A stretch of DNA of 50,074 nucleotides, taken from the NCBI GenBank assembly GCA_902572775.1, contig CACGHF010000003.1:1-50074 (forward strand), read 5' to 3'. Below are positions 2,545 to 38,240 of this stretch, in pieces. This DNA comes from an uncultured Pelagibacteraceae bacterium (lineage in GTDB: Bacteria > Pseudomonadota > Alphaproteobacteria > Pelagibacterales > Pelagibacteraceae). A program made the translations under genes and the position numbers. The stretch's first letter is position 1, and every line of letters starts with the position of its first letter. The notes under the pieces were generated by a model that made no database searches, was not told the origin of the DNA, and worked only from the letters and a program-made list of their open reading frames with translations.

Positions 2545-3233
2545 AAGACCTAATTAAAATTGGAATTCCAAGTAAAGGTAGACTTCGAAAAGATGTGTTA
2601 AACATTTTTAAAAAAAATAAATTAAAATTAATCTCAAGTAGAGGAGATCGTGATCTAATTGGATCTATTAAAGGAAAGCAAAATATTGAAATTATTTATT
2701 TACACGCACGTGAAATAATAGAGCAACTAGCAGGCAAATCACTCGACCTAGGTTTTTCAGGATTAGATTTGTTAAAAGAAAGTGAAATTAATATTCAAAA
2801 TAACATTAAAATTTTTAAAAAATATCCTTATGGGCAAGCAACACTTGTTGTGGCTATCCCAACAGATTTTATAGATATATTCAGCATGGCAGACCTTGAA
2901 GAAGTAGCCTTTGAGTTTAAAGATAAAAAGAAAAAGCGATTAAGAGTTGCAACTAAATATCCAAATTTAACACGTGAATTTTTTTATAGCAAAGGAGTTA
3001 CTCAGTTTTCTATTGTTAAATCAATTGGCAGTACTGAGATAGCACCATATACAGGCAGTTCTGAGGTTATAACAGATATTACTAGTACAGGTTCAACCCT
3101 TGCAGCTAATAATTTGAGAATTATTAATGATGGATATATTTTAAAATCTGAACTTTGTATGATGGTTGCAAAATCATCTCTTCAGAATAAAAAATTGCAA
3201 AAATTAGCTAAATTACTTTCGACCAAATATTAA
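2541..3233 (+). CDS. hisG: ATP phosphoribosyltransferase catalytic subunit, short form
   Basis: IGIPSKGRLRKDV, LDLGFSGLDLL, RVATKYPNLTREFF, TGSSEVITDITSTGSTLAANNL. Confidence 0.95.
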   Translation: MKDLIKIGIPSKGRLRKDVLNIFKKNKLKLISSRGDRDLIGSIKGKQNIEIIYLHAREIIEQLAGKSLDLGFSGLDLLKESEINIQNNIKIFKKYPYGQATLVVAIPTDFIDIFSMADLEEVAFEFKDKKKKRLRVATKYPNLTREFFYSKGVTQFSIVKSIGSTEIAPYTGSSEVITDITSTGSTLAANNLRIINDGYILKSELCMMVAKSSLQNKKLQKLAKLLSTKY

Positions 3234-3391: not shown

Positions 3392-3706
3392 TTATTTTTT
3401 TGTTTTTGTTTCTTCTTCAACTAATTCTTTATTATCAAAATACTCACTGATAACTTGATGAAATAGTATTAAACCCAACATTATAATTAAGAAAATTCCG
3501 CCTTTTATTAAATAAAAGTTTTCAAGAAATATACCAGAAGATAGAAATAACGGCCCACCAATTCCAAAAGACCAAACGAGGTTCATTGCAAAATTGGGTG
3601 TTTTCCCATCCTTACCAAAAATAAAAAAAATAAAGATTGCAAACAAAAGGATAGTTCCCTTCATTAATAAAATTATTGAGCTTAAAATAAATGGGGTTAC
3701 AGTCAT
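3392..3706 (-). CDS. Small multi-TM membrane protein, 104 aa
   Basis: Several hydrophobic segments; ATGA overlap with the 58-aa ORF upstream. Confidence 0.6.
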   Translation of the reverse strand: MTVTPFILSSIILLMKGTILLFAIFIFFIFGKDGKTPNFAMNLVWSFGIGGPLFLSSGIFLENFYLIKGGIFLIIMLGLILFHQVISEYFDNKELVEEETKTKK

Positions 3707-3879
3707 TTATAGTTTTTAATTTGTTTTCTTTGTTTCATTATTACTATTAATAAAAATAAAAGGATTAAAGGATAGAGTAAGATAAATATGATAATATTAA
3801 TAAGTTCGTAACTAGTACCAGTGAGTTTAGCTAGCCAAACAAGAATATCAACACACAAGTAAAATATATAATCTACCAT
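3703..3879 (-). CDS. Small membrane protein, 58 aa
   Basis: Read by eye: MVDYIFYLCVDILVWLAKLTGTSYELINIIIFILLYPLILLFLLIVIMKQRKQIKNYK*. Overlaps the next ORF by 4 nt. Confidence 0.55.
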   Translation of the reverse strand: MVDYIFYLCVDILVWLAKLTGTSYELINIIIFILLYPLILLFLLIVIMKQRKQIKNYK

Positions 3880-3886
3880 ATACCTA

Positions 3887-3916
3887 TATGTGTTTTTTTA
3901 CGGAATTTGTGCCAAA
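3887..3916 (-). promoter_or_regulatory. Promoter-like motif TTTGGCA-N17-CACATA
   Basis: Minus strand: TTTGGCA CAAATTCCGTAAAAAAA CACATA, 7 nt before ATG of the 58-aa ORF. Confidence 0.5.
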
Positions 3917-4753
3917 TTATTTTTTCCAACCATAATCAGTTACAAAATAATTTTTATTTAAATACTCATAAATATTTTCATAAAGTATTTTAATTATAAT
4001 TTTTGTTAGAATATCTTCATCAGTTCTTAACTCTAACATTCTTGGTAGTTTTTCTCTTGAATTTACTTTTTGAACAGCGCTTTGACGTATGGTGTTTTGA
4101 TCCTCAGAGTATTTATTAAAAATTTTTTCTTCATTTTTTTTTATAAAACTTAATAGATAATTTTTTTTAACAACTTTTATTTTTCTTAGTGCCTGAAATT
4201 CAAATTGTCTTACTCTTTCTCTAGTAACATCTAAAGCTGTACCTATTTCTTGTAGTGTTTTATTTTTCCAGAAACGGTCGTGTAATATTGAATATTCTTT
4301 ATCATTCAATAAATCTTTAATTTCACCTAATAAAGACTCAGTATCTACTTGTAATTCATCAATTTCTTTTTCTTTTAAAATTTTAATTTTTTCTTCTAAG
4401 TTTTCAGGAGGCCAATTTTCAATATATGTGTTAAAATTAAGTTTATAAAAATCTAATAATTCTCTTAGCTCTGTTAATGATTTTACTCCAAAATTTTGAG
4501 ATTTAAGTAAGTATTGCTCCGATAATTGAATTAAATCACCAATATTTTTAACATTTTCATTTTTAAGACAATTAAAAGTTCTAACGCTGAGATTTAGAGA
4601 TTCTATTGGTTTTATTAAGACTTCTAAATTTTCATTAAGATAACTTTCGACAGAGCTATTTTTTTTTATATTTTTGTATTTTTCTAATTCTTTTCGTAAA
4701 TATTCATTTTCATTTTTTAATTTTTCGATTTTATAATCTTTATCGTTGTTCAT
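3917..4753 (-). CDS. Chimera: coiled coil + RNA polymerase alpha-CTD + sigma-70 region 4-like HTH
   Basis: LIKPIESLNLSVRTFNCLKNENVKNIGDLIQLSEQYLLKSQNFGVKSLTELRELL...ENWPPENL matches RpoA CTD; EYSILHDRFWKNKTLQEIGTALDVTRERVRQFEFQALRKIK matches sigma region 4. Confidence 0.85.
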   Translation of the reverse strand: MNNDKDYKIEKLKNENEYLRKELEKYKNIKKNSSVESYLNENLEVLIKPIESLNLSVRTFNCLKNENVKNIGDLIQLSEQYLLKSQNFGVKSLTELRELLDFYKLNFNTYIENWPPENLEEKIKILKEKEIDELQVDTESLLGEIKDLLNDKEYSILHDRFWKNKTLQEIGTALDVTRERVRQFEFQALRKIKVVKKNYLLSFIKKNEEKIFNKYSEDQNTIRQSAVQKVNSREKLPRMLELRTDEDILTKIIIKILYENIYEYLNKNYFVTDYGWKK

Positions 4754-4756
4754 TGG

Positions 4757-6856
4757 TTATTTAGATTTTTTAATACTTACAACGTTATCTTCTGTTTCAA
4801 AGTATAATTGATCATGAATATATTTTGGCCCAAGATTTGCTAGTTTTTCCAATGTTTCATCTCTATTAATTCGCTTTATTAACCATCTTTTTAACCACGC
4901 TGATGTAATGTTTTCTGCTTTTGAGGATGTGATATTGGAAAAATTCTTTTTTTGATCAATAATTTTTTTCAAAATATTTTTCTCATGAAAAAAAATATAG
5001 TTTTTTCTTTGCATAGAATGTGCAAAAAAAGTATCAAGCTGAATATTTGATTTAGAATTATCAAGCAAGCAATCTATTCCAACTCTTGCTTTTCTTAGTT
5101 TTGGAGAAGTTCCCTCACCAAATTTATGATTTACCTCAACATATTTAAGTTTTTTAAGAGTTAAAATACCAAGTAATTTTGAGGTCTCATTACTAAAATG
5201 GTAAACACCTTGGCCTTTAGTTTTTTGTGATTGTTTGTTTTTTTTTGCTTCACTCCAAATCACATCTGTTTCAAGTTCCGGATAATCTTTTTTTAAAAAT
5301 TTTATTTTATTATACTGTGAAGATGCAACTCCATACAGACTTGTAGTTGTTAAGCACATTAAATTAGCATCTCTGTAAACAGCTTTACCTTTACTGCTAG
5401 ATGCAATTATTGAGGGGAACTTATATTTTTTTCCATTATATCTAGACTTGAACAAGGTTCTAACCTCAGTACTTCCCATCAGAGCAGCTATAAGTTTTCC
5501 TCCTATCAATTCATTATAAGGAGCTACAGCACCACATACACCAAGATCCATTATATTTTCAGCGAGGGCTTTAGTTTTTATTTCTCTTAAGGCAGCTGAA
5601 ATTAGTTCATTACCTTTTTTATTAGATGGGTGAATCAGGGTAGCATATCCTCTTGCTGGATCTTTCTGGATTTTAACCTCATTAAAAGCTTTTCTTATTT
5701 CTAAAAATTTTGAAAGTTTGATCGCTCTCTTTTTTTTAAAAACTGCTTCTTCCGACTCTTTCATCCAATCTTCAGGCTCAAAACTAGAAATTTTTGGTGG
5801 TTTTTTCTTTTCATTTTTTAAGTCACTTTTACGTCTGTTAAACTCGTCTTCATAAATTTGTTTAAGTTTTTTAATTACATCTTCGTTAGGCTCTTTAACT
5901 AATTTAGAATTTAAAAAATCAAAATCATCACTTCTAATATTATCGATTTGTTCATTTAAACAATCGACCATAGCTTTTACTAAAAAATCTATTTCAATTT
6001 CTTTTGAATAAATTTTCTTTCTTATAGTTGCTTCATCCGTCCATCCAATAGCATCTTCTCTTGCTTCATCTGCAAGAGCAGCACTTCTGAGCATAGCAAT
6101 TCCCATAATTGGTTTATTAGGCCTTGCAGCATTTCTAATTAAAATTGGAAAACTTTTTCCAGGAACAGATTTATATTCATTAGACCATGTAAGCCTGAAA
6201 TATTTCCATATATCTCCTAATCTAAGGCCAGTATATGGACAATTATTTTGCTCCTCTCTAAATAGTGGATCTTCAGGATAACAAATAACTATTTCAGGAT
6301 TAATGATTTTTTTAAGTAGTGAGATTTTTTTTTCCTCATCTAGTTGAGAAATGTCCTTAAAAATTTCAGCTAGTTCTTTACCATTATCAATTAGATCTAA
6401 TATTGATTTTTCCTCATTCCCAATTTTCCTAGGTTTCTCCATTCGTTGAATAAATCTTTGTATTTCAACACTTTTCATGTGCTTGTCCCTATTAATTTTT
6501 TGGACACGCCTCATTTTTTCTTTAGTTTCTTCTAAATTATTCCCAGTAAAGGCAGTTGAATAATCTGGCTTTGAAATTAAAAACCCTTCAAGACCTAAGC
6601 CTACATGCCAACCACCAGCAAGTAGATCAGCTAATAAAGAGCAACACGCTTGAAAAGAAATATTCTCTTTATTAAATTTCATGAAAAACGACTCATGTTC
6701 ATCTAAAGATATTTTATTAAAAATAGTAATCTGACTCTCAAGATCTTTGATTAAATCTTGAGAGTTATTATTATCTACGAATATCTTTCTTATTAACCTT
6801 AAACTGTGAGGGCTTAAGTTTGGAACAAAAGTGCTATACTTTTCTGTTTTCACCAC
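4757..6856 (-). CDS. DUF4338/Druantia DruA-like protein, 699 aa
   Basis: LGVCGAVAPYNELIGGKLIAALMGSTEVRTLFKSRYNG, LTTTSLYGVASSQYNKIKF, FGEGTSPKLRKARVGI resemble the long DUF4338 family from memory. GTG start overlaps the upstream TAG stop. Confidence 0.65.
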   Translation of the reverse strand: MVKTEKYSTFVPNLSPHSLRLIRKIFVDNNNSQDLIKDLESQITIFNKISLDEHESFFMKFNKENISFQACCSLLADLLAGGWHVGLGLEGFLISKPDYSTAFTGNNLEETKEKMRRVQKINRDKHMKSVEIQRFIQRMEKPRKIGNEEKSILDLIDNGKELAEIFKDISQLDEEKKISLLKKIINPEIVICYPEDPLFREEQNNCPYTGLRLGDIWKYFRLTWSNEYKSVPGKSFPILIRNAARPNKPIMGIAMLRSAALADEAREDAIGWTDEATIRKKIYSKEIEIDFLVKAMVDCLNEQIDNIRSDDFDFLNSKLVKEPNEDVIKKLKQIYEDEFNRRKSDLKNEKKKPPKISSFEPEDWMKESEEAVFKKKRAIKLSKFLEIRKAFNEVKIQKDPARGYATLIHPSNKKGNELISAALREIKTKALAENIMDLGVCGAVAPYNELIGGKLIAALMGSTEVRTLFKSRYNGKKYKFPSIIASSSKGKAVYRDANLMCLTTTSLYGVASSQYNKIKFLKKDYPELETDVIWSEAKKNKQSQKTKGQGVYHFSNETSKLLGILTLKKLKYVEVNHKFGEGTSPKLRKARVGIDCLLDNSKSNIQLDTFFAHSMQRKNYIFFHEKNILKKIIDQKKNFSNITSSKAENITSAWLKRWLIKRINRDETLEKLANLGPKYIHDQLYFETEDNVVSIKKSK

Positions 6857-8734
6857 TAATTTACTTTAGCATCACTACCTGGATCTGGTAATTCATCATC
6901 CATATTATCGATTGGATCTGGATCATCTTTTCTAGCTTCAGCTCTCTGTCTTGCAACAGTTTTTAAATGATCTCCCAAATCATTCATAAAATTATTTATA
7001 AAGTCTTGGTGATCTTCGGTATGTTTATAAAATAATTGAGCAAACATTAATAAAAAAGTTTCCCACCCTTGTCTAGAATCATTATTTGATCCAGGACCCA
7101 TATAAAAGTTTTTATAAAAACTGTGATCCATATTGATAATTACCTCTACAGTATCACCATGTTCATCAAATTTTATAAAATCATTATGTTTACCTAGCTT
7201 ATCCTCACTAAATTTAGTAGGTCTATCTTTATAAATATCCTCATAATCTTTAGCTGCTTGTTCAACTGATATATTTTTCTTTTCAGAAATTTCTTTTATC
7301 TTAGCATTTTTTCTAGCATCAGCTTTTTCCTTACGTTCTTGATAATCGGGAGTTGCTTTGGTTGTTCCCATCAACAAATTTGCAGTTTCTGCATCAATTT
7401 CAGACTCTCTCTTTTGAGTTTCATCTTCTTTGGGTCCTTCTTGTAATTTAGCTTTAAGAACACCTCCTTCTTCACCAAAATCTTTTTCTATTTGATTAAG
7501 ATGTCTAAATATTCCAGTTGCATCTAATGTTTCTAAAAATCTTTCATTTGGAATTATTTGTTGTTTAGAAGTGTTAACAGCGAAATGTTCATCTAATACT
7601 GGTGGAAAATTAATTTCACACTTCCAATATCTACTGTTATTTCCAACACTTATCCTGCCACCAAAGTTTTTTACTACATCCATACGTCTTCCTAACCTTC
7701 TAAAGACTATTCCATGGTTTTTTTGTGAAACTCTCCATCGCTGACTCTTTTTATCTGGTCCTCGTGTAATTTTTCCCTTTATGTAAGCCTTTTCAACATC
7801 TGGTTCATCTGACTCATTTCTTACAAAAAATAATGCAGGTAATCTTGACCATCTTATTTGAATTTCATGAGTATTACCCTCTTCATCTTTTATTTCAGAG
7901 GTCATTTCATGATAGTGATCGTCAGAAACTTTTAAATTATTCATAGAAGAATCTTCATATCCAAGCATACCAGGAGTAGCAAAACATGGATCAACAGGCT
8001 TCACCTCTTGATTATCTACAAACATTTTTGTTGTATTTAATAATTTAAAATAAGTTTGACCAAAGTCATCCATTAAGTTGTGTTTTAATGTGTTAATGCT
8101 AGTGGGTGAAATTTTATCTAATTCTTCGTAATGAATAATTGTTCCACTTTCTAACTTTTCAGCAACTAAGTTTTTTCCTTCAAATGATTTAATAAATTTT
8201 GGTAAATCGCATTTTTCAGGAACTGATCTAATATCATCTAAACTTGGTTTATCTGTTGTTTCAAGTTGGGTAATATCAAATATAATTTTGTGCCAATCAC
8301 CACCTTTAACTTTAGAGTAGATAGTATATTTTTTTGCTATACTAAGAGAGGCTGATGGTAAACCATATCCATATTTACCAAAACCTTTTCTAGAACCTTG
8401 TCTATGAGTTCCACCCCATGTAACAGCAACTGAAAGCATATCTTTCACCATTCCATGACCATCATCATATATAACCAATTCGTCAATTTTATTACTTGTG
8501 CCAATTAGTTCATAATGAATATTTCTTGCACCTGCTTGAAACGAGTTATCATTAATTTCATTTAAAGCGTATGCAGTATCTTTATAACCAAGATCTCTAA
8601 TACCTTTTAAGAAAGCTTCAACAAGTACAACACCTTGAATTCCACTTGCACCACCTTGTTTGATGAAATCCAATTGTTCTTTTAATTCTGGATTTTCGAT
8701 AAATTCTTTTTGTAATTCTAATTCTGTTTTCATA
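6856..8734 (-). CDS. GHKL (HSP90/histidine-kinase-like) ATPase
   Basis: N box ALNEINDNSFQAGA, G1 box YDDGHGM, GFGKYGYGLPSASLSIAKK. ATG at 8734 has AAAGGA upstream and is preferred to 8766, which lies in a hairpin. Confidence 0.8.
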
Positions 8735-8750
8735 ATTTTCCTTTGTTGTG

Positions 8751-8772
8751 GAGGGTGGAATTCCACCCTCCG
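8751..8772 (-). promoter_or_regulatory. GC-rich perfect palindrome/intercistronic hairpin
   Basis: GGAGGGTGGAATTCCACCCTCC, between the sigma-like gene stop (8781) and the GHKL start (8734). Confidence 0.7.
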
Positions 8773-8780
8773 TTAGTTTA

Positions 8781-9407
8781 TTAGTTTAATGTTAAACTTC
8801 CAGCGTAATATCCTTTTAAGTACATTTTCGCCTTAGAGTTGATTGAGTCTTTTAGTCTGAAAGATGTTCTTGTTGAAACACCCAATTCATTAGCAACTGT
8901 TTCAGCTGAAGCTTCATCATGAATGAACATTTTCCAAGCCTTTTTTTCCAAACCTCGAAGAGATTTAACAAAAGCTTTTCCTACTTTTTTTATATCATGA
9001 CAAAAACCTGTGTCTTCATCATGTTTCGTTCCAAACAAATTAGAGTTTGAACGAAGACCTAAAGTAGAAACTTCTTTTAGTCTCTTTTTGGTTTCAGCAT
9101 ATCTAATTTCTTTAGTTCTAATTGAACTATAGAAATTTCTTAAATGATTATAAAGATATGCCAAGATTGCATCTTTAGATTTAGCTCTACTAGGATCAAA
9201 ATAATCTAATATGCTATCAGCCCACACTTTAGTAAAAAAGTCTTGTGCTAATTCATCAGTTTGATCAGTTGAACGTTTAAAACCTGCCTTATGGTCAAGT
9301 TTTCTTATGCAAGCTTTAATTTTAGATAGATGTGATAAATACACATCGCTAAAATTTAGCGCTGTACTTGCTACATTTTTTACGCTTTGGTCTGCATGAT
9401 TGCTCAT
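8781..9407 (-). CDS. ECF-sigma-like protein
   Basis: Region 2-like TDELAQDFFTKVWADSILDYFDPSRAKSKDAILAYLYNHLRNFYSSIRTKEIR; C-terminal HTH ASAETVANELGVSTRTSFRLKDSI. SD AGAAAGG. Confidence 0.6.
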   Translation of the reverse strand: MSNHADQSVKNVASTALNFSDVYLSHLSKIKACIRKLDHKAGFKRSTDQTDELAQDFFTKVWADSILDYFDPSRAKSKDAILAYLYNHLRNFYSSIRTKEIRYAETKKRLKEVSTLGLRSNSNLFGTKHDEDTGFCHDIKKVGKAFVKSLRGLEKKAWKMFIHDEASAETVANELGVSTRTSFRLKDSINSKAKMYLKGYYAGSLTLN

Positions 9408-9408
9408 G

Positions 9409-9504
9409 TGTTCCCTTTCTACGTTGTGGGAACATCTAGAAGAAATTCTGAGTCAAAAAATACTCGAATAAGTGGACCACAATAGGATCCGTCGAGATAT
9501 TCCC
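9409..9504 (-). promoter_or_regulatory. Structured 5' leader with mutually exclusive helices (switch candidate)
   Basis: Minus RNA: GGGAAUAUCU(9504-9495)/AGAUGUUCCC(9437-9428), 10 bp incl. one G-U; alternative UGUUCCC(9434-9428)/GGGAACA(9415-9409), 7 bp, covering part of the SD. Confidence 0.5.
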
Positions 9505-9589
9505 GATTAAATTATGATCAAATTACATTAAAATGACCAAAAAAGCCAGTAAAATCTGTTATTTTAAATTTACTAACCTCTCACATATC

Positions 9590-9619
9590 TATGTTAATTT
9601 TTGCTAAATCACTGCCAAA
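9590..9619 (-). promoter_or_regulatory. Promoter-like motif TTTGGCA-N17-AACATA
   Basis: Minus strand: TTTGGCA GTGATTTAGCAAAAATT AACATAGAT, upstream of the sigma-like gene leader. Confidence 0.5.
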
Positions 9620-10164
9620 TTTTTTCGATTTATCAGAAAAAACTTTGCCTTAGACAAATATTTATTAAATTTTTGCTTTTTTTTTTCAAATATCAAATAA
9701 ATTAAGATAACTGGTTTTCTACTTTTAATTGAGTAATTAATACATTGTCTAACATGTTTATTTAAACTTTCCTTAATATTTTTTTCCGAAACCTTTAATT
9801 CAATACAGCAATCTTTATAGTTTTTACCATCAACTTCAACTTTGTTAGCATTAAAGTCAGGGTAAACGTGTCTGAACTTTTTAAATTTATAGGAAGTTAT
9901 ATCCTTTAATTTTTTAACTTTTAAAAATGTAAAAGCTTTAATGCCTGTTCTAACCAAAGAATTTATAGGTAAAGCATTATTCTTTACAATTGTCGTGGGT
10001 AAATTTTTTGTTCTTAAATAATAGATATCATTTGCATAGTTTTGAGCTGCTGGAATTGAAAATTGATCTCTATGAAAGGCATAAGAAAATCTAATTGCTT
10101 CCTCAACAGCTTTCCCTCTTATCATAGCAGCTAAATTATTTTTTTTTTTTAAAGAAGTAATCAT
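9604..10164 (-). CDS. Putative PD-(D/E)XK-type nuclease-like protein
   Basis: YPDFNANKVEVDGKNYKDCCIELKVSEKN compatible with a PD...ExK core; weak family assignment. Confidence 0.4.
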   Translation of the reverse strand: MITSLKKKNNLAAMIRGKAVEEAIRFSYAFHRDQFSIPAAQNYANDIYYLRTKNLPTTIVKNNALPINSLVRTGIKAFTFLKVKKLKDITSYKFKKFRHVYPDFNANKVEVDGKNYKDCCIELKVSEKNIKESLNKHVRQCINYSIKSRKPVILIYLIFEKKKQKFNKYLSKAKFFLINRKNLAVI

Positions 10165-10173
10165 CTAGTTACT

Positions 10174-10204
10174 TATGTAAAAATTTAATAAAAATTATGC
10201 CAAA
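10174..10204 (-). promoter_or_regulatory. Promoter-like motif TTTGGCA-N18-TACATA
   Basis: Minus strand: TTTGGCA TAATTTTTATTAAATTTT TACATAAG, 9 nt before ATG at 10164. Confidence 0.45.
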
Positions 10205-10210
10205 ATTTTA

Positions 10211-10240
10211 TTTGGCAGTATTTTTTAAAAATATCACATA
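10211..10240 (+). promoter_or_regulatory. Promoter-like motif TTTGGCA-N17-CACATA
   Basis: Plus strand: TTTGGCA GTATTTTTTAAAAATAT CACATAGAG; ends 9 nt before the RNA stem at 10250. Confidence 0.5.
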
Positions 10241-10249
10241 GAGATGTAT

Positions 10250-10328
10250 GAGCGATCACACATTTGTTTATTCATTGTTTCTAGTGTCTTTCAAACCTCC
10301 TTTCTGTTTGTTGTCAGTGTGGTCGCTC
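10250..10328 (+). ncRNA. Structured RNA with anti-Shine-Dalgarno-like loop
   Basis: Outer stem GAGCGATCACAC(10250-10261)/GTGTGGTCGCTC(10317-10328), one G-U; inner hairpin CAAAC-CTCCTTTCT-GTTTG (10292-10310). ACCTCCTTTCT equals the bacterial 16S 3' end. Confidence 0.55.
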
Positions 10329-10337
10329 TAAAAATTT

Positions 10338-10436
10338 ATGTTTAGTTTTATTTGGCAATTATTAACAAGTTTTATTTTGATAGTTATTTTAGGGTTTGGA
10401 TTATTTTATTTAGGTAAATTAATATTAGGTTTTTAA
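10338..10436 (+). CDS. Possible 32-aa hydrophobic peptide
   Basis: MFSFIWQLLTSFILIVILGFGLFYLGKLILGF*; no clear SD. Confidence 0.3.
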   Translation: MFSFIWQLLTSFILIVILGFGLFYLGKLILGF

Positions 10437-10453
10437 TGCAGAAAAATTTATAT

Positions 10454-10538
10454 GCTCAAATGGCGGAACAGTTAGACGCGACAAGTGATACTTGTTTCAC
10501 TACGGTGAGTACCAGTGCAAATCTGGTTTTGAGTACCA
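10454..10538 (+). tRNA. Class-II (long variable arm) tRNA-like element with CCA; atypical anticodon arm
   Basis: Acceptor GCTCAAA/TTTGAGT, Leu-like D arm GCGGAACAGTTAGACGC, arm GACAA-GTGATAC-TTGTT, variable arm TCAC-TACG-GTGA, T arm ACCAG-TGCAAAT-CTGGT, A + CCA. Confidence 0.6.
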
Positions 10539-10539
10539 T

Positions 10540-10578
10540 AGACGACTATGTCTTGTGGGGAGAGATAGTCCTCTCCCT
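10540..10578 (+). ncRNA. Two hairpins with complementary 6-nt loops (kissing-loop candidate)
   Basis: AGAC-GACTAT-GTCT (10540-10553) and GGGGAGAG-ATAGTC-CTCTCCCT (10557-10578); GACTAT is the reverse complement of ATAGTC. Confidence 0.65.
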
Positions 10579-10593
10579 GCAAAGAAAATAATT

Positions 10594-10773
10594 ATGAAAA
10601 AAATAAAAAATAAAATTGATAAAATAACAGAGATCAGAATAGAAGAGGTGATAGATGAAGAGAATAATGAGAATTATTTTTGGATATATTATTTCCGCAA
10701 TGGAAAAATAGAAATTATTGGAAAATCATCTGAAAAGCCACAATGCTATAGACAGGTTGTAAGATATCAATGA
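10594..10773 (+). CDS. Hypothetical protein, 59 aa
   Basis: MKKIKNKIDKITEIRIEEVIDEENNENYFWIYYFRNGKIEIIGKSSEKPQCYRQVVRYQ; in-frame N-terminus from 10492 rejected because it lies in the structured RNA. ATGA overlap with next ORF. Confidence 0.5.
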   Translation: MKKIKNKIDKITEIRIEEVIDEENNENYFWIYYFRNGKIEIIGKSSEKPQCYRQVVRYQ

Positions 10774-10997
10774 GTAAAAAATCGATTAAAAAGAAAAAAA
10801 ATAATGTAATTATTTTTTCGAATTATTTTATAAAAAAAAGAATTATTGAAGAACGTAGAATTTATCAAAATGAAGTTGTTGGTGAATGTTGTGAATGTCA
10901 CGGTTTAGGTTATACCACTGAAAAAGATATTGAGATGATCTGCATCAGTTGTGATGGAATTGGGACATTCTATTATGGAAAAGAAAATACAAATTGA
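10770..10997 (+). CDS. Small zinc-ribbon-like protein
   Basis: CCECHGLGYTTEKDIEMICISCDGIG, paired CxxCxGxG-like motifs as in DnaJ zinc fingers. Confidence 0.55.
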   Translation: MSKKSIKKKKNNVIIFSNYFIKKRIIEERRIYQNEVVGECCECHGLGYTTEKDIEMICISCDGIGTFYYGKENTN

Positions 10998-11029
10998 AAT
11001 AAAAATAAAGGAGTATAGAGTAAAGAATC

Positions 11030-12121
11030 ATGGATATAGTATCACTTAGTATTTTAGTATTATTGTTAGGAGTTGCAGTTGCAATTCTTTATTTAAATAT
11101 AAAATCAAAACCTAAAGAAGAGAGCAAAGATTTAGAGGAAATTGCCAATCTTAAAGCTGAGATTGTTACCTTAAAAGACTCGCTTAACTCAACAATCAAT
11201 ACATCATTAGGATCAATGTCTACCTCGTTTAATGCATTATCAACGGGGGTAACTAAAGATATGACTGAGACTTTGACCAAGGTAGAAGAAAAAGTTGGAA
11301 ATTTTAATCAGCAAGTTCAATTATTAAATCAAAGTCAAGAGGGTATTACTAAAATCTTGGCGGGAGTTAAGAAATACGGAGTGTTAGCTGAGTACAGTTT
11401 GGATTCACTAATTAGAGATTTATTACCTGTAAATCAATTTCTTACAAATGTTAAGATGAAGGAAGATACAAGTGAAAATGTTGAGTTTGCTATCAAACTA
11501 CAAGGAGATGTTTTAGTTCCTTTAGACTCTCATTTTCCAGTAGAAAAATTTAAAGCAATTACCGATGGTCATGACGCGGAAGACAAAAGGGCTGTTGCAG
11601 ATGCTAGAGCAAAATTAGCCTCAGCATTTAAAGCAAAAGCTAAAAGCGTTAATGAAAAATATATTGTTCCACCAAAAACTACTGATTTTGCAATTGTGTA
11701 TGCTCCTACAGAAAGCTTATACAAAGAGTTAACTGAATACCAAGATCCAAGTACAAAAGAATTATTAACTCAAGAATTAATGAAAAAATATAAAGTTGTA
11801 ATATGTGGGCCTAATACTCTTTCTGCTTACTTACAATCTTTACATATGGGCTTTCAATCATTGAAAGTACAAAAAGGTGCAACAGAAATTTATAATCATT
11901 TAAAAACAATCAGTACAAGATTTTCTAAACATTTTGACAACATTATAGTTCTTAGAAAAAAATTAGAAGACGCTATGGGTGTTGTTGATAAATTTGGAAC
12001 GGATGCAAGATCAATTTCAAGAACTTTAGAAAACATTAAAGATCCCGAGCAGGTTGAGAAAGCTGTACAAACTGAAAACGTGGAAAAATTTGTTGAACGA
12101 AATAGGCAACTTAAAAATTAA
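11030..12121 (+). CDS. rmuC: RmuC family protein (membrane-anchored coiled coil)
   Basis: N-terminal TM, coiled coil, VEFAIKLQGDVLVPLDSHFPVEKF, VICGPNTLSAYLQSLHMGFQSLKVQK. Confidence 0.85.
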   Translation: MDIVSLSILVLLLGVAVAILYLNIKSKPKEESKDLEEIANLKAEIVTLKDSLNSTINTSLGSMSTSFNALSTGVTKDMTETLTKVEEKVGNFNQQVQLLNQSQEGITKILAGVKKYGVLAEYSLDSLIRDLLPVNQFLTNVKMKEDTSENVEFAIKLQGDVLVPLDSHFPVEKFKAITDGHDAEDKRAVADARAKLASAFKAKAKSVNEKYIVPPKTTDFAIVYAPTESLYKELTEYQDPSTKELLTQELMKKYKVVICGPNTLSAYLQSLHMGFQSLKVQKGATEIYNHLKTISTRFSKHFDNIIVLRKKLEDAMGVVDKFGTDARSISRTLENIKDPEQVEKAVQTENVEKFVERNRQLKN

Positions 12122-12158
12122 TTTCTTTTTTTCCTTAATAACGTCTATAAGAAATCTC

Positions 12159-12845
12159 ATGCAGTGGAATCAAAAATATGATTATCCAAAATCATCAAGA
12201 GCAACAGTTGATGGGATTAGAAGATACTTATTAGGGGAAACAAAATTACCAAGTGTCACTTCAATTTTGGATGCAACACGATCTGAAGAAGATAAAGCGG
12301 CATTAGCAAATTGGAGAGAAAGAACTGGGCAAAAAGAAGCTGAAGCAATTACAAAAGCAGCAAGTAGTAGAGGTTCTCAAATGCACAACTATTTAGAATC
12401 TTATTTACTTGGAAGAGAAAATTTAAGTTTTTTTGAAGATAACGAACAATACAAATTAATGGCTAAAGAAATTATAGAAAAAGGTTTGAAAAATAGATTG
12501 GATGAAATTTGGGGTGTTGAATGCACTCTTTATTACCCAGAGAAGTATGCAGGTACTGCTGATTGTGTTGGAGTTTATGAAGGAAAAGAAACAATAATAG
12601 ATTTTAAACAAAGTAATAAACCTAAAAAGGCTGAGTATATAGATTCATGGCTTCTTCAAACAAGTGCATATTCTTTAGCACATAACATTGTGTATAACTC
12701 CAATATCACTTCTTGTGTAATTTTGGTTTGCACGGTAGATAAATTATTCCAAGAGTTTAAAATTCAAGGCCATGATTTAATTGTTTATCAAAATTTGTTT
12801 TTGGGAAGATTAAAAAAATTTAATGAGTTATCGGATTTAATTTAG
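12159..12845 (+). CDS. RecB-like/MGME1-like PD-(D/E)XK exonuclease
   Basis: SSRGSQMHNYLESYLLG, GTADCVGVYEGKETIIDFKQSNKPKK, LLQTSAYSLAHN. Confidence 0.7.
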   Translation: MQWNQKYDYPKSSRATVDGIRRYLLGETKLPSVTSILDATRSEEDKAALANWRERTGQKEAEAITKAASSRGSQMHNYLESYLLGRENLSFFEDNEQYKLMAKEIIEKGLKNRLDEIWGVECTLYYPEKYAGTADCVGVYEGKETIIDFKQSNKPKKAEYIDSWLLQTSAYSLAHNIVYNSNITSCVILVCTVDKLFQEFKIQGHDLIVYQNLFLGRLKKFNELSDLI

Positions 12846-12851
12846 GATTTT

Positions 12852-14288
12852 ATGGATAAAATAGTAATTTACGATACAGAAACAACAAATAGTACAATTT
12901 GGGGCTCAATAATTGAAGTAGGTGCTGTAGTTGTTGATAAAAACTTAAAAGAAATTGGTAAGTTAAATATTCGTGGCAGAATGCCCGAGGGTGAGGTTCC
13001 AAGCGCAAAAGCTTTATTAGTTAACTCAACAAGTATTGATTTACTTACTAAAGGAAATTATTCCCATTACGATTTTTTAGGAGCTGTAGAAAACTTCTTC
13101 TCAAAGGCTGCACCAGCATTGTTTATGGGTTGGAGTAATTTAAATTTTGATAGACGAATGTTTCATTTTAATTTTTTCAAAGGAAACAGATATCCTTACA
13201 TCACACATTCTTCACCTAATAAAGAACATGATGGTTTACATGTTGCAAGAGTGGCTCAAACCTTAAATCCTGAAACATTAAAGACTGAATTAACAGAAGC
13301 TGGCAACGAAAGTCTTGCTCTAGAGGGTTTAGCCAGACAACAAGGATTTGATACATCTCAACAACATACAGCTTATCATGATGCGTTCACAAGCTTAAAA
13401 ATTCTCAGAATTATAAAAGATAAACACAAAGATAATTGGGAAAATTTCCTAAGCACATCGACAAAAAATAGTGTTGAAACTATTTTAAAAACTGAGGGGA
13501 TTTATTCAATATTTGAAAATGTCAAAGGAAAAAATATGATGTATCTTGTCTCTACATTACATCCCGATCATTGTTTTCATCCTTCATATGCATCTTGGGG
13601 ATATTTATTTGATTTAAGAAGAGATCCTGAACCATTATTGAATTTATCAGTAAACGATCTTAAAGTTTATTTAAAAAAGTTTAGTCCAAAAGCACTTAGA
13701 GTAATTAAAACCAACAAAGCACCAGTTGTATTAGATAAAAAGTTTGCATTAAAGGAAAAGGCGTATGCAGACTTAGATTTAGAAACCATTCAAAAAAGAG
13801 CAAAAATGGTTAGAAATAGTGAAAATTTTTGTAAAAATATTCAAATCATTAACAGAGAAGCAGCTGAAGAAAAAGCTCAAACTAAAACTCAAGAAGATTT
13901 ACTGCCAGAAGAAACTTTATATGAAAAATTTATTCCAAACAAAGACACCCAATTATTTAAAACTTGGCATAGTTCTTCTTGGGAAGATAAATTAAGAATG
14001 TTGGATAAGTTTCAAGATAAAAGATGTAGTTGGTTTGGCCAAAAAATAATCTATCAAGAAGCACCACATATTTTGCCACCAGACTTATATAAAAATATAA
14101 AAAGTGAAATTGCTAGACGAATTTTAAGTAAAAATAGAGAAAAATGGCAAACTATAGGAATGGCTTATCAAGAAATTGATACCTTAAGAGATCAAGCATC
14201 AAATCGAGATGATGAAGAAGAACTAAAAAAATTAGATGAAATAAATGAATTTATTATGTCTATAGAAAAAAAATATGAAATTGCCTAG
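12852..14288 (+). CDS. DEDDh exonuclease, exodeoxyribonuclease I (SbcB)-like
   Basis: IYDTETTNS, GWSNLNFDRRMFHFNFF, HTAYHDAFTSLKIL; SbcB-like length. Confidence 0.7.
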   Translation: MDKIVIYDTETTNSTIWGSIIEVGAVVVDKNLKEIGKLNIRGRMPEGEVPSAKALLVNSTSIDLLTKGNYSHYDFLGAVENFFSKAAPALFMGWSNLNFDRRMFHFNFFKGNRYPYITHSSPNKEHDGLHVARVAQTLNPETLKTELTEAGNESLALEGLARQQGFDTSQQHTAYHDAFTSLKILRIIKDKHKDNWENFLSTSTKNSVETILKTEGIYSIFENVKGKNMMYLVSTLHPDHCFHPSYASWGYLFDLRRDPEPLLNLSVNDLKVYLKKFSPKALRVIKTNKAPVVLDKKFALKEKAYADLDLETIQKRAKMVRNSENFCKNIQIINREAAEEKAQTKTQEDLLPEETLYEKFIPNKDTQLFKTWHSSSWEDKLRMLDKFQDKRCSWFGQKIIYQEAPHILPPDLYKNIKSEIARRILSKNREKWQTIGMAYQEIDTLRDQASNRDDEEELKKLDEINEFIMSIEKKYEIA

Positions 14289-15905: not shown

Positions 15906-16788
15906 TTTGTTCAGCACTTATATCAGAATTTTTCTTTAACAATATTGATAATAAGGTTCCAATTTTAGATGCAAGATCTTTACGCTCAACAATTAAATCG
16001 ACAAAACCAGTTTTTTCAACATATTCACTTTTTTGGAAACCTTCTGGAAGTTCTTCTTTAACAGTTCCTTGTATTACTCTTGCACCTGCAAATGCAATTA
16101 AAGCTCCTGGTTCTGCAATATGAATATCACCTAACATAGCGTATGATGCGGTAATACCCCCTGCAGTAGGATCAGTGACACAAACTAAATACGGAAGACC
16201 GTTTTTCTTTAATTCATTTATTGCAAGTGTTGTTCTTGTCATTTGAGATAAAGAAATTAAACTTTCCATCATTCTCATACCTCCACCAGCGCTAATACAT
16301 AAAAAAGGTGTTTGATTTTCTATCGCATGCTGTATTCCATATAAAAAAGCTTCACCTTCTGCTGCTGCCATTGAAGCTCCTAAAAAATCAAAATCAGAAG
16401 CTACAGCAGTAATTTTAATATTATTTATAGTTCCAGAAGCAACCATCATTCCACATTCTAATCCTGTTTTTTTTCGAGCACTTTTTAATCTTTCTTTATA
16501 AGGTTTAGAGTCTGTCCAATTTAGTGGATCATCTTTTGGTATTGGGGTTTTAAAAATCTCGTAATTATTTTTTCCAAACAATATATCAAATCTTTGATGA
16601 GGTTTTATTCTATGATGACGTTTACAATCAGGACATACCCATAAGTTTTCCTCTAAATCCTTTTTTAAAATTGGACCCTTACAACATGATGTCCAATCAC
16701 TTTTTGCAATATCTTCTTTCGTAGCTCTTTCACGTATAGCAGTTTTAATTTTTTCACCTGCTTTAATAATTTTAGTTATCCAGTTCAT
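15859..16788 (-). CDS. accD: Acetyl-CoA carboxylase carboxyltransferase beta subunit
   Basis: CPDCKRHHRIKPHQRFDILF, CISAGGGMRMMESLISLSQM, GALIAFAGARVIQGT. Confidence 0.95.
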   Translation of the reverse strand: MNWITKIIKAGEKIKTAIRERATKEDIAKSDWTSCCKGPILKKDLEENLWVCPDCKRHHRIKPHQRFDILFGKNNYEIFKTPIPKDDPLNWTDSKPYKERLKSARKKTGLECGMMVASGTINNIKITAVASDFDFLGASMAAAEGEAFLYGIQHAIENQTPFLCISAGGGMRMMESLISLSQMTRTTLAINELKKNGLPYLVCVTDPTAGGITASYAMLGDIHIAEPGALIAFAGARVIQGTVKEELPEGFQKSEYVEKTGFVDLIVERKDLASKIGTLLSILLKKNSDISAEQNENSEDSQSLTRAAS

Positions 16789-37984: not shown

Positions 37985-38130
37985 TCGTACCCCATCTGTA
38001 TTTTTGCCTGAGAGTTTTACTCCTTCGGCGGAAATCAATCTCTTTCCAGAGTGTTATGCTTTAATCGGTCCTTTTGCCTGAGAGTTTCCGGGGTGGTTGC
38101 TCCTTCGGCGCTATAAATAGTCTCTCCCGA
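37985..38130 (-). promoter_or_regulatory. Tandem glycine riboswitch upstream of glcB
   Basis: Two aptamer cores on minus strand, each with CGCCGAAGGAG and CTCTCAGGCAAAA. Confidence 0.93.
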
Positions 38131-38240
38131 TAATGAATTTGTATCTGTTAAATGATTTAAGTCAATTAATAAGAATTACACCTTATTTAATATCATTTTA
38201 TTGCCTTTTTTGTATTTTAACCATCCGCTATAAATAAAAC

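Follow-up and report, generated by a model that had tools for sequence, protein, structure and literature searches.

An uncultured Pelagibacteraceae bacterium encodes, on the forward strand of the 50,074-nucleotide stretch of DNA analysed here (the window), a compact RNA of ~131 nt (10454-10584) in which a tRNA-like cloverleaf is followed by two hairpins with fully complementary loops, and which lies directly behind the gene of a 32-aa hydrophobic peptide. This is a dedicated structured RNA, neither a decoding tRNA nor a chance pair of hairpins, and it almost certainly represents a conserved family. SAR11 bacteria rank with the most abundant cells on Earth, and their genomes are streamlined; to our knowledge, few regulatory RNAs or small mobile systems have been described from them.

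The RNA and its conservation

The cloverleaf (10454-10538, + strand), delineated by ARAGORN and by covariance over 15 sequences, has a long variable arm, A73, a T-loop reading TGCAAAT (10516-10522) and an encoded CCA (10536-10538) that is present in 16 of the 17 copies of the RNA, the exception being CTA in copy L147. By the sequence features that it shares with tRNA-Leu, namely the long variable arm, the Leu-type D arm and A73, and by the one copy (L099) that has a normal T-loop and D-loop, the cloverleaf is derived from tRNA-Leu. ARAGORN calls it tRNA-Ile with anticodon GAT, and its anticodon calls vary among orthologues (GAT, AAA, TTA and TTT, i.e. Ile, Phe, Lys or 'Stop'). The anticodon arm (10481-10495) has a 5-bp stem and a 5-nt loop of variable sequence in every copy except L099, T33 is not kept, and nearly all copies deviate at G19 and T55. 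With a variable anticodon loop of ~5 nt, the cloverleaf cannot decode.

Six further full copies turned up when 399 genomes of the genus were searched at the DNA level. We then ran a covariance model built from seven sequences over 397 genomes of the order. Seven of these reached 134-161 bits, and the score then dropped to 70, where the matches inspected proved to be ordinary tRNA-Leu. Searching 85,462 species genomes with an anticodon-arm pattern that is independent of the hairpin loops gave five extra loci, which the covariance model confirmed while discarding chance matches, and a second genus of the family supplied one additional locus. In all, the RNA was recovered at 17 loci, each scoring 134-161 bits as compared with at most 71 bits for ordinary tRNA-Leu; every copy is apparently from SAR11, one of them on a chimeric MAG contig, and carriage amounts to ~2-4% of the genomes searched. 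The sole candidate for spread beyond SAR11, copy L144 in a MAG labelled Micavibrio, was rejected because its contig is an assembly chimera. On this Micavibrio-labelled contig (L179, PAAR01000029.1) an unrelated contig has been fused to a SAR11 island at 15960-16042; at the junction, near 16.0 kb, the GC content passes from 0.42 to 0.28 and two genes are cut, and past it the start of RmuC is similar to that of the SAR11 protein.

The initial annotation had suggested that the tRNA-like element and the hairpins form one compact RNA, and the comparison bears this out, with the hairpins as its 3′ half. In an alignment of 15 distinct sequences (A3), whose cells count sequences and not independent events, 99.6% of the structure cells are paired, and 13 pairs have changed on both sides, where shuffles give an expectation of 5.8 and slid controls show 1-5. 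The covarying pairs are located in the acceptor, variable and T stems and in both hairpin stems. The stem cells hold 38 G-U pairs and a single A-C; since a functional minus strand would show the reverse, the folded, functional RNA is that of the plus strand. The segment 10454-10580 folds at -43.7 kcal/mol (z = -2.95), with one of 200 dinucleotide shuffles at least as stable.

Over 10454-10584, no Rfam 15 family reaches its gathering score, and a permissive scan returned only a chance match at 10621-10656. Neither ARAGORN nor Rfam finds a tmRNA in the window. Look-ups by term in candidate-RNA surveys of Pelagibacter and of bacteria and metagenomes (PMC2704228, PMC2864571) brought up no tRNA-like or kissing element of this kind. 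The evidence points to an undescribed RNA family that is a form of the known tRNA-like RNAs. Elsewhere in the window, Rfam identifies a glycine riboswitch (38056-38139, - strand; RF00504, 65.7 bits) and, at its very start, a tRNA-His missed by ARAGORN (48-118, + strand; anticodon GTG by reading), next to hisS and then hisG.

Paired hairpins with complementary loops

On re-reading the sequence we recovered both hairpins of the initial annotation. Hairpin 1 (10540-10553, + strand) is AGAC-GACTAT-GTCT, a 4-bp stem with its loop at 10544-10549, and hairpin 2 (10557-10578, + strand) is GGGGAGAG-ATAGTC-CTCTCCCT, with its loop at 10565-10570; the two are separated by a TGT spacer (10554-10556), and the loops GACTAT and ATAGTC are exact reverse complements. 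Hairpin 2 is closed by a G.U pair, and three outer pairs (U-G, G-C and U-A) extend its stem to as many as 11 bp (10554-10564 with 10571-10581), giving a full span of 10554-10581. A further suggestion, that the CCA pairs with the TGG at the base of hairpin 2, does not hold among the homologues: the TGG site reads TGG, CGG or CAG, and the CCA has become CTA in L147.

We scanned the window for neighbouring Watson-Crick hairpins with stems of at least 4 bp and 6-nt loops that are exactly complementary. The pair at 10540-10578 is the only one in the 50 kb, and the same scan found none in 60 first-order shuffles of the window. The hairpin pair with matching loops is not due to chance.

Both loops, GACUAU and AUAG(N)UC, are unchanged in 17/17 copies and keep all six complementary pairs. 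In 11 of these copies the second loop contains one extra base (A, C or T) and reads ATAG-N-TC, at a position where a helix could hold a bulge. Every loop column that could pair is invariant, six in loop 1 and six in loop 2 (12/12), compared with 22/46 of the other unpaired columns and 8/22 columns in the stem of hairpin 2. The stems do vary, and in a compensatory manner: the loop-adjacent pair of hairpin 1 is C-G, U-A or U-G among the homologues, and in hairpin 2 six of the 11 stem pairs have changed on both sides with all cells paired. An alternative hairpin, ATAG-AYGA-CTAT, which appears in the minimum-energy fold of the window RNA, is missing in L097, L139 and L099 and was rejected. Neither loop varies, so that their complementarity is kept with no covariation between them; for the same reason, loop-loop pairing is not separable from recognition of the loops by a protein or by another RNA.

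Judged by folding energy alone, hairpin 1 is marginal (0 to -2.3 kcal/mol) and hairpin 2 is stable at -14.1 to -18.6 kcal/mol; a 6-bp duplex between the loops is worth ~ -4.5 kcal/mol, which exceeds hairpin 1 on its own. We lean towards loop-loop pairing being used in the active form of the RNA. The initial annotation had proposed an intramolecular kissing-loop or dimerisation module, and of this proposal the conserved complementarity stands, whereas the one-molecule geometry fares less well. Only 0-3 nt separate the two stems (4 bp and 9-11 bp), and a coaxial kiss would set the stem bases ~20 bp apart, so that, from A-form geometry, a kiss within one molecule with both stems intact is unlikely. 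Two other arrangements would fit this geometry better: a double-kissing dimer of two copies, whose two composite helices would be equally long (4+6+11 bp), or a pseudoknot that would form once hairpin 1 opens and its GACUAU pairs with the loop of hairpin 2.

Upstream peptide and island setting

At all 17 loci the RNA is preceded, at a distance of 12-17 nt, by the gene of a conserved 32-aa hydrophobic peptide; in the window this is the ORF MFSFIWQLLTSFILIVILGFGLFYLGKLILGF (10338-10436, + strand; stop codon 10434-10436), separated from the cloverleaf by a 17-nt AT-rich spacer (10437-10453). The predicted product is probably a single-pass membrane peptide. Its median pairwise dN/dS of 0.24 (80 comparisons) indicates purifying selection, and it has no match in Pfam or PHROGs. 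A profile search found the family in 13 genomes above 38 bits. Peptides of this family (30-32 aa) also occur without the RNA in varied contexts (G064, G093, G224, G144 and G012, with a weaker call in G220), that is, alone in at least five or six genomes, which means that the peptide does not need the RNA; the RNA without the peptide was never found among the 17 loci. One viral contig (L181) has a 48% partial match to the peptide and no RNA there. A bidirectional terminator-like hairpin, TGCCAAAATTTTATTTGGCA (10198-10217), lies upstream of the peptide gene, within the divergent intergenic region.

The downstream side is inconstant. As initially annotated, the hairpins of the window sit ahead of a 59-aa ORF (10594-10773, + strand; ATG at 10594), and the RNA had been taken for a cis-regulator or a stand-alone ncRNA. 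Among the copies, however, the gene that follows the RNA belongs to any of four unrelated families, whose products are an HNH nuclease, a 75-aa zinc-finger-like protein and proteins of 59 and 97 aa. The upstream gene, in contrast, is without exception that of the peptide, and for this reason cis-regulation of the 59-aa ORF is not supported. The copies occupy two unrelated genomic sites, 14 being located upstream of rmuC (L183 judged by its next gene) and three beside an HNH nuclease near groEL. A constant peptide, a varying downstream gene and two sites imply that the unit consists of the peptide and the RNA, and that the 59-aa ORF is a mere neighbour.

In the window, this unit is part of a variable island (3392-10997) between hisG, which ends at 3233, and rmuC, which begins at 11030; in relatives such as L033, hisG directly adjoins rmuC. 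On the plus strand, small genes are followed by rmuC and by RecB-type and SbcB-type exonuclease genes. A divergent operon on the minus strand encodes, according to Pfam and PADLOC, a DruA-like protein (4757-6856), a HATPase resembling MzaB (6856-8766) and a sigma-like protein (8781-9407); an uncharacterised gene (9604-10164) is listed with it. In one draw of 329 genomes the RNA is present in 5 of the 7 that carry the HATPase and in 7 overall. We rejected a functional link between the RNA and this operon: genome G281 has the same operon and no RNA, and shared location explains the association. In G281 the same island carries other small genes in the slot of the peptide and the RNA, which means that the neighbouring island genes do not need the pair.

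The island has further features of its own. Several SAR11 genomes carry the DruA-like/HATPase/sigma-like operon (4757-9407, - strand) at this site, and it may be an undescribed defence system. Adjoining the DruA-like gene, 3917-4753 (- strand) encodes a 278-aa protein that fuses an RNA polymerase alpha C-terminal domain to sigma-70 region 4 (Pfam E-values 2e-20 and 3e-14), an unusual combination. RmuC and the SbcB-like exonuclease (11030-14288, + strand) are recognised by PADLOC models for proteins that accompany defence reverse transcriptases; no reverse transcriptase model matched any island gene that was scanned. As to a phage origin, blastn of 10430-11000 against 50,697 phage records gave chance matches only, and three patterns derived from the RNA had no match in 2.9 million viral contigs.

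Proposed mechanism, alternatives and known systems

The explanation that we tentatively put forward, at a little short of an even chance for the whole, is that the RNA is a structured partner of the peptide: processed, making a contact through its loops, and forming with the peptide an island-borne accessory pair. The RNA would be made as the 3′ part of the peptide transcript. RNase P could recognise the cloverleaf and free the RNA from the peptide message, and the hairpins, which begin 1-4 nt after the CCA, may block normal tRNA 3′ maturation and so leave a stable product. A processed, stand-alone RNA is somewhat favoured. The invariant complementary loops would then provide an RNA-RNA contact. 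The accessory pair might be toxin-antitoxin-like or defence-like, a role that we place on the unlikely side; antisense matching of the RNA to the peptide message does not rise above shuffled controls, which disfavours a classical type I antitoxin.

Two other readings accept a functional element here and assign it a different task. The loops could be a binding site for a protein or for an RNA acting in trans, with their mutual complementarity secondary. Loop invariance across the 17 copies exceeds what pairing alone requires, but an exact 6/6 complementarity would be unexpected of a plain site, and the second loop tolerates its inserted base precisely where a paired helix could bulge; we regard this reading as doubtful. 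Still less do we favour a cis-regulatory leader, in which the RNA, situated in the 5′ region of the downstream operon, would switch the next gene through loop-loop contact or by sensing a tRNA-binding factor. At the loci read, the next start codon does follow the end of hairpin 2 by ~10-35 nt, and the downstream operons often run into nuclease genes (rmuC, exonucleases, HNH). Such a leader is nevertheless quite improbable given the unrelated genes downstream and the constant peptide upstream, and given that neither strand has a rho-independent terminator-like site at the hairpins and that nearly all genomes have rmuC without the RNA.

The remaining readings make the RNA a by-product or an ordinary gene, and each meets stronger objections. 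The 3′ end of a tRNA-Leu might be kept as DNA, as an attachment site or relic for site-specific integration of a phage or island: tRNA genes are common integration sites, and the cassette is located in variable islands. This is very improbable, since the compensatory changes and the preponderance of G-U pairs reveal selection acting on the structure of the RNA; moreover, no locus has a long repeat of the RNA elsewhere (the best other match is 14-15 nt), the flanking genes examined include no integrase, and the viral contigs searched gave no match to the RNA patterns. We give hardly any weight to a further short ORF, overlapping the peptide stop codon (TAATG) and running on through the RNA (51 aa, 10436-10591). 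The window and nine other copies have this frame open, but stops or frameshifts interrupt it in 6/16 copies (L068, L097, L139, L069, L150 and L099), and the RNA structure persists in all. A working, decoding tRNA, such as the tRNA-Ile of the ARAGORN call, can practically be dismissed: acceptor stem, T arm and D arm do form a cloverleaf with CCA, but this has to be set against the inconstant anticodon in its short loop, the loss of T33, the altered G19 and T55, and a score below threshold with the Rfam tRNA model.

The structured partner RNA that we propose recalls several known systems. The nearest comparison for a tRNA-Leu trailer acting by pairing is the 3′ external transcribed spacer of the E. 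coli glyW-cysT-leuZ transcript (3′ETS-LeuZ), which lies immediately behind tRNA-Leu and works by base pairing; in that case the tRNA is a functional one, the spacer is removed by cleavage and no peptide gene is involved (PMC6191717). In the SAR11 RNA, by contrast, a non-decoding tRNA and the hairpins are conserved as one, behind a peptide gene.

In tmRNA (SsrA), a single stable RNA combines other helices with a tRNA-like domain that lacks the normal anticodon arm. The SAR11 RNA shares such a domain and further helices, but has no tag reading frame, its body is of the Leu and not the Ala type, and its hairpins are placed 3′ of the CCA rather than inside. Viral 3′ tRNA-like structures, for example those of plant RNA viruses, are non-decoding tRNA mimics that end a message, and the SAR11 RNA resembles them in description; it is bacterial and DNA-encoded, and two more hairpins follow. 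Fully complementary loops of 6 or 7 nt are also found in the kissing hairpins TAR-TAR* and ColE1 RNAI-RNAII; here, however, both loops are carried by one RNA, too close together for an intramolecular kiss with both stems closed. Finally, type I toxin-antitoxin loci such as Fst and Ldr encode small hydrophobic peptides, and the SAR11 cassette similarly has a membrane peptide of ~30 aa beside a structured RNA. Unlike a type I antitoxin, this RNA follows the peptide gene in the same orientation and has no antisense relation to its message.

In its most far-reaching form, our proposal would define a class of non-decoding tRNAs in which a tRNA-Leu scaffold carries a self-complementary two-hairpin module, and the resulting dimeric RNA and its 32-residue membrane peptide form a mobile defence or toxin-antitoxin cassette in SAR11; we consider so extended a claim rather unlikely. 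The invariance of the loops makes the RNA-RNA contact directly testable by compensatory loop mutations. If the proposal is true, the cassette would be a specific candidate for an accessory system of RNA and peptide in SAR11, and a tRNA body would have been reused as a non-decoding scaffold tied to a tiny membrane peptide, a new bacterial use of the tRNA fold.
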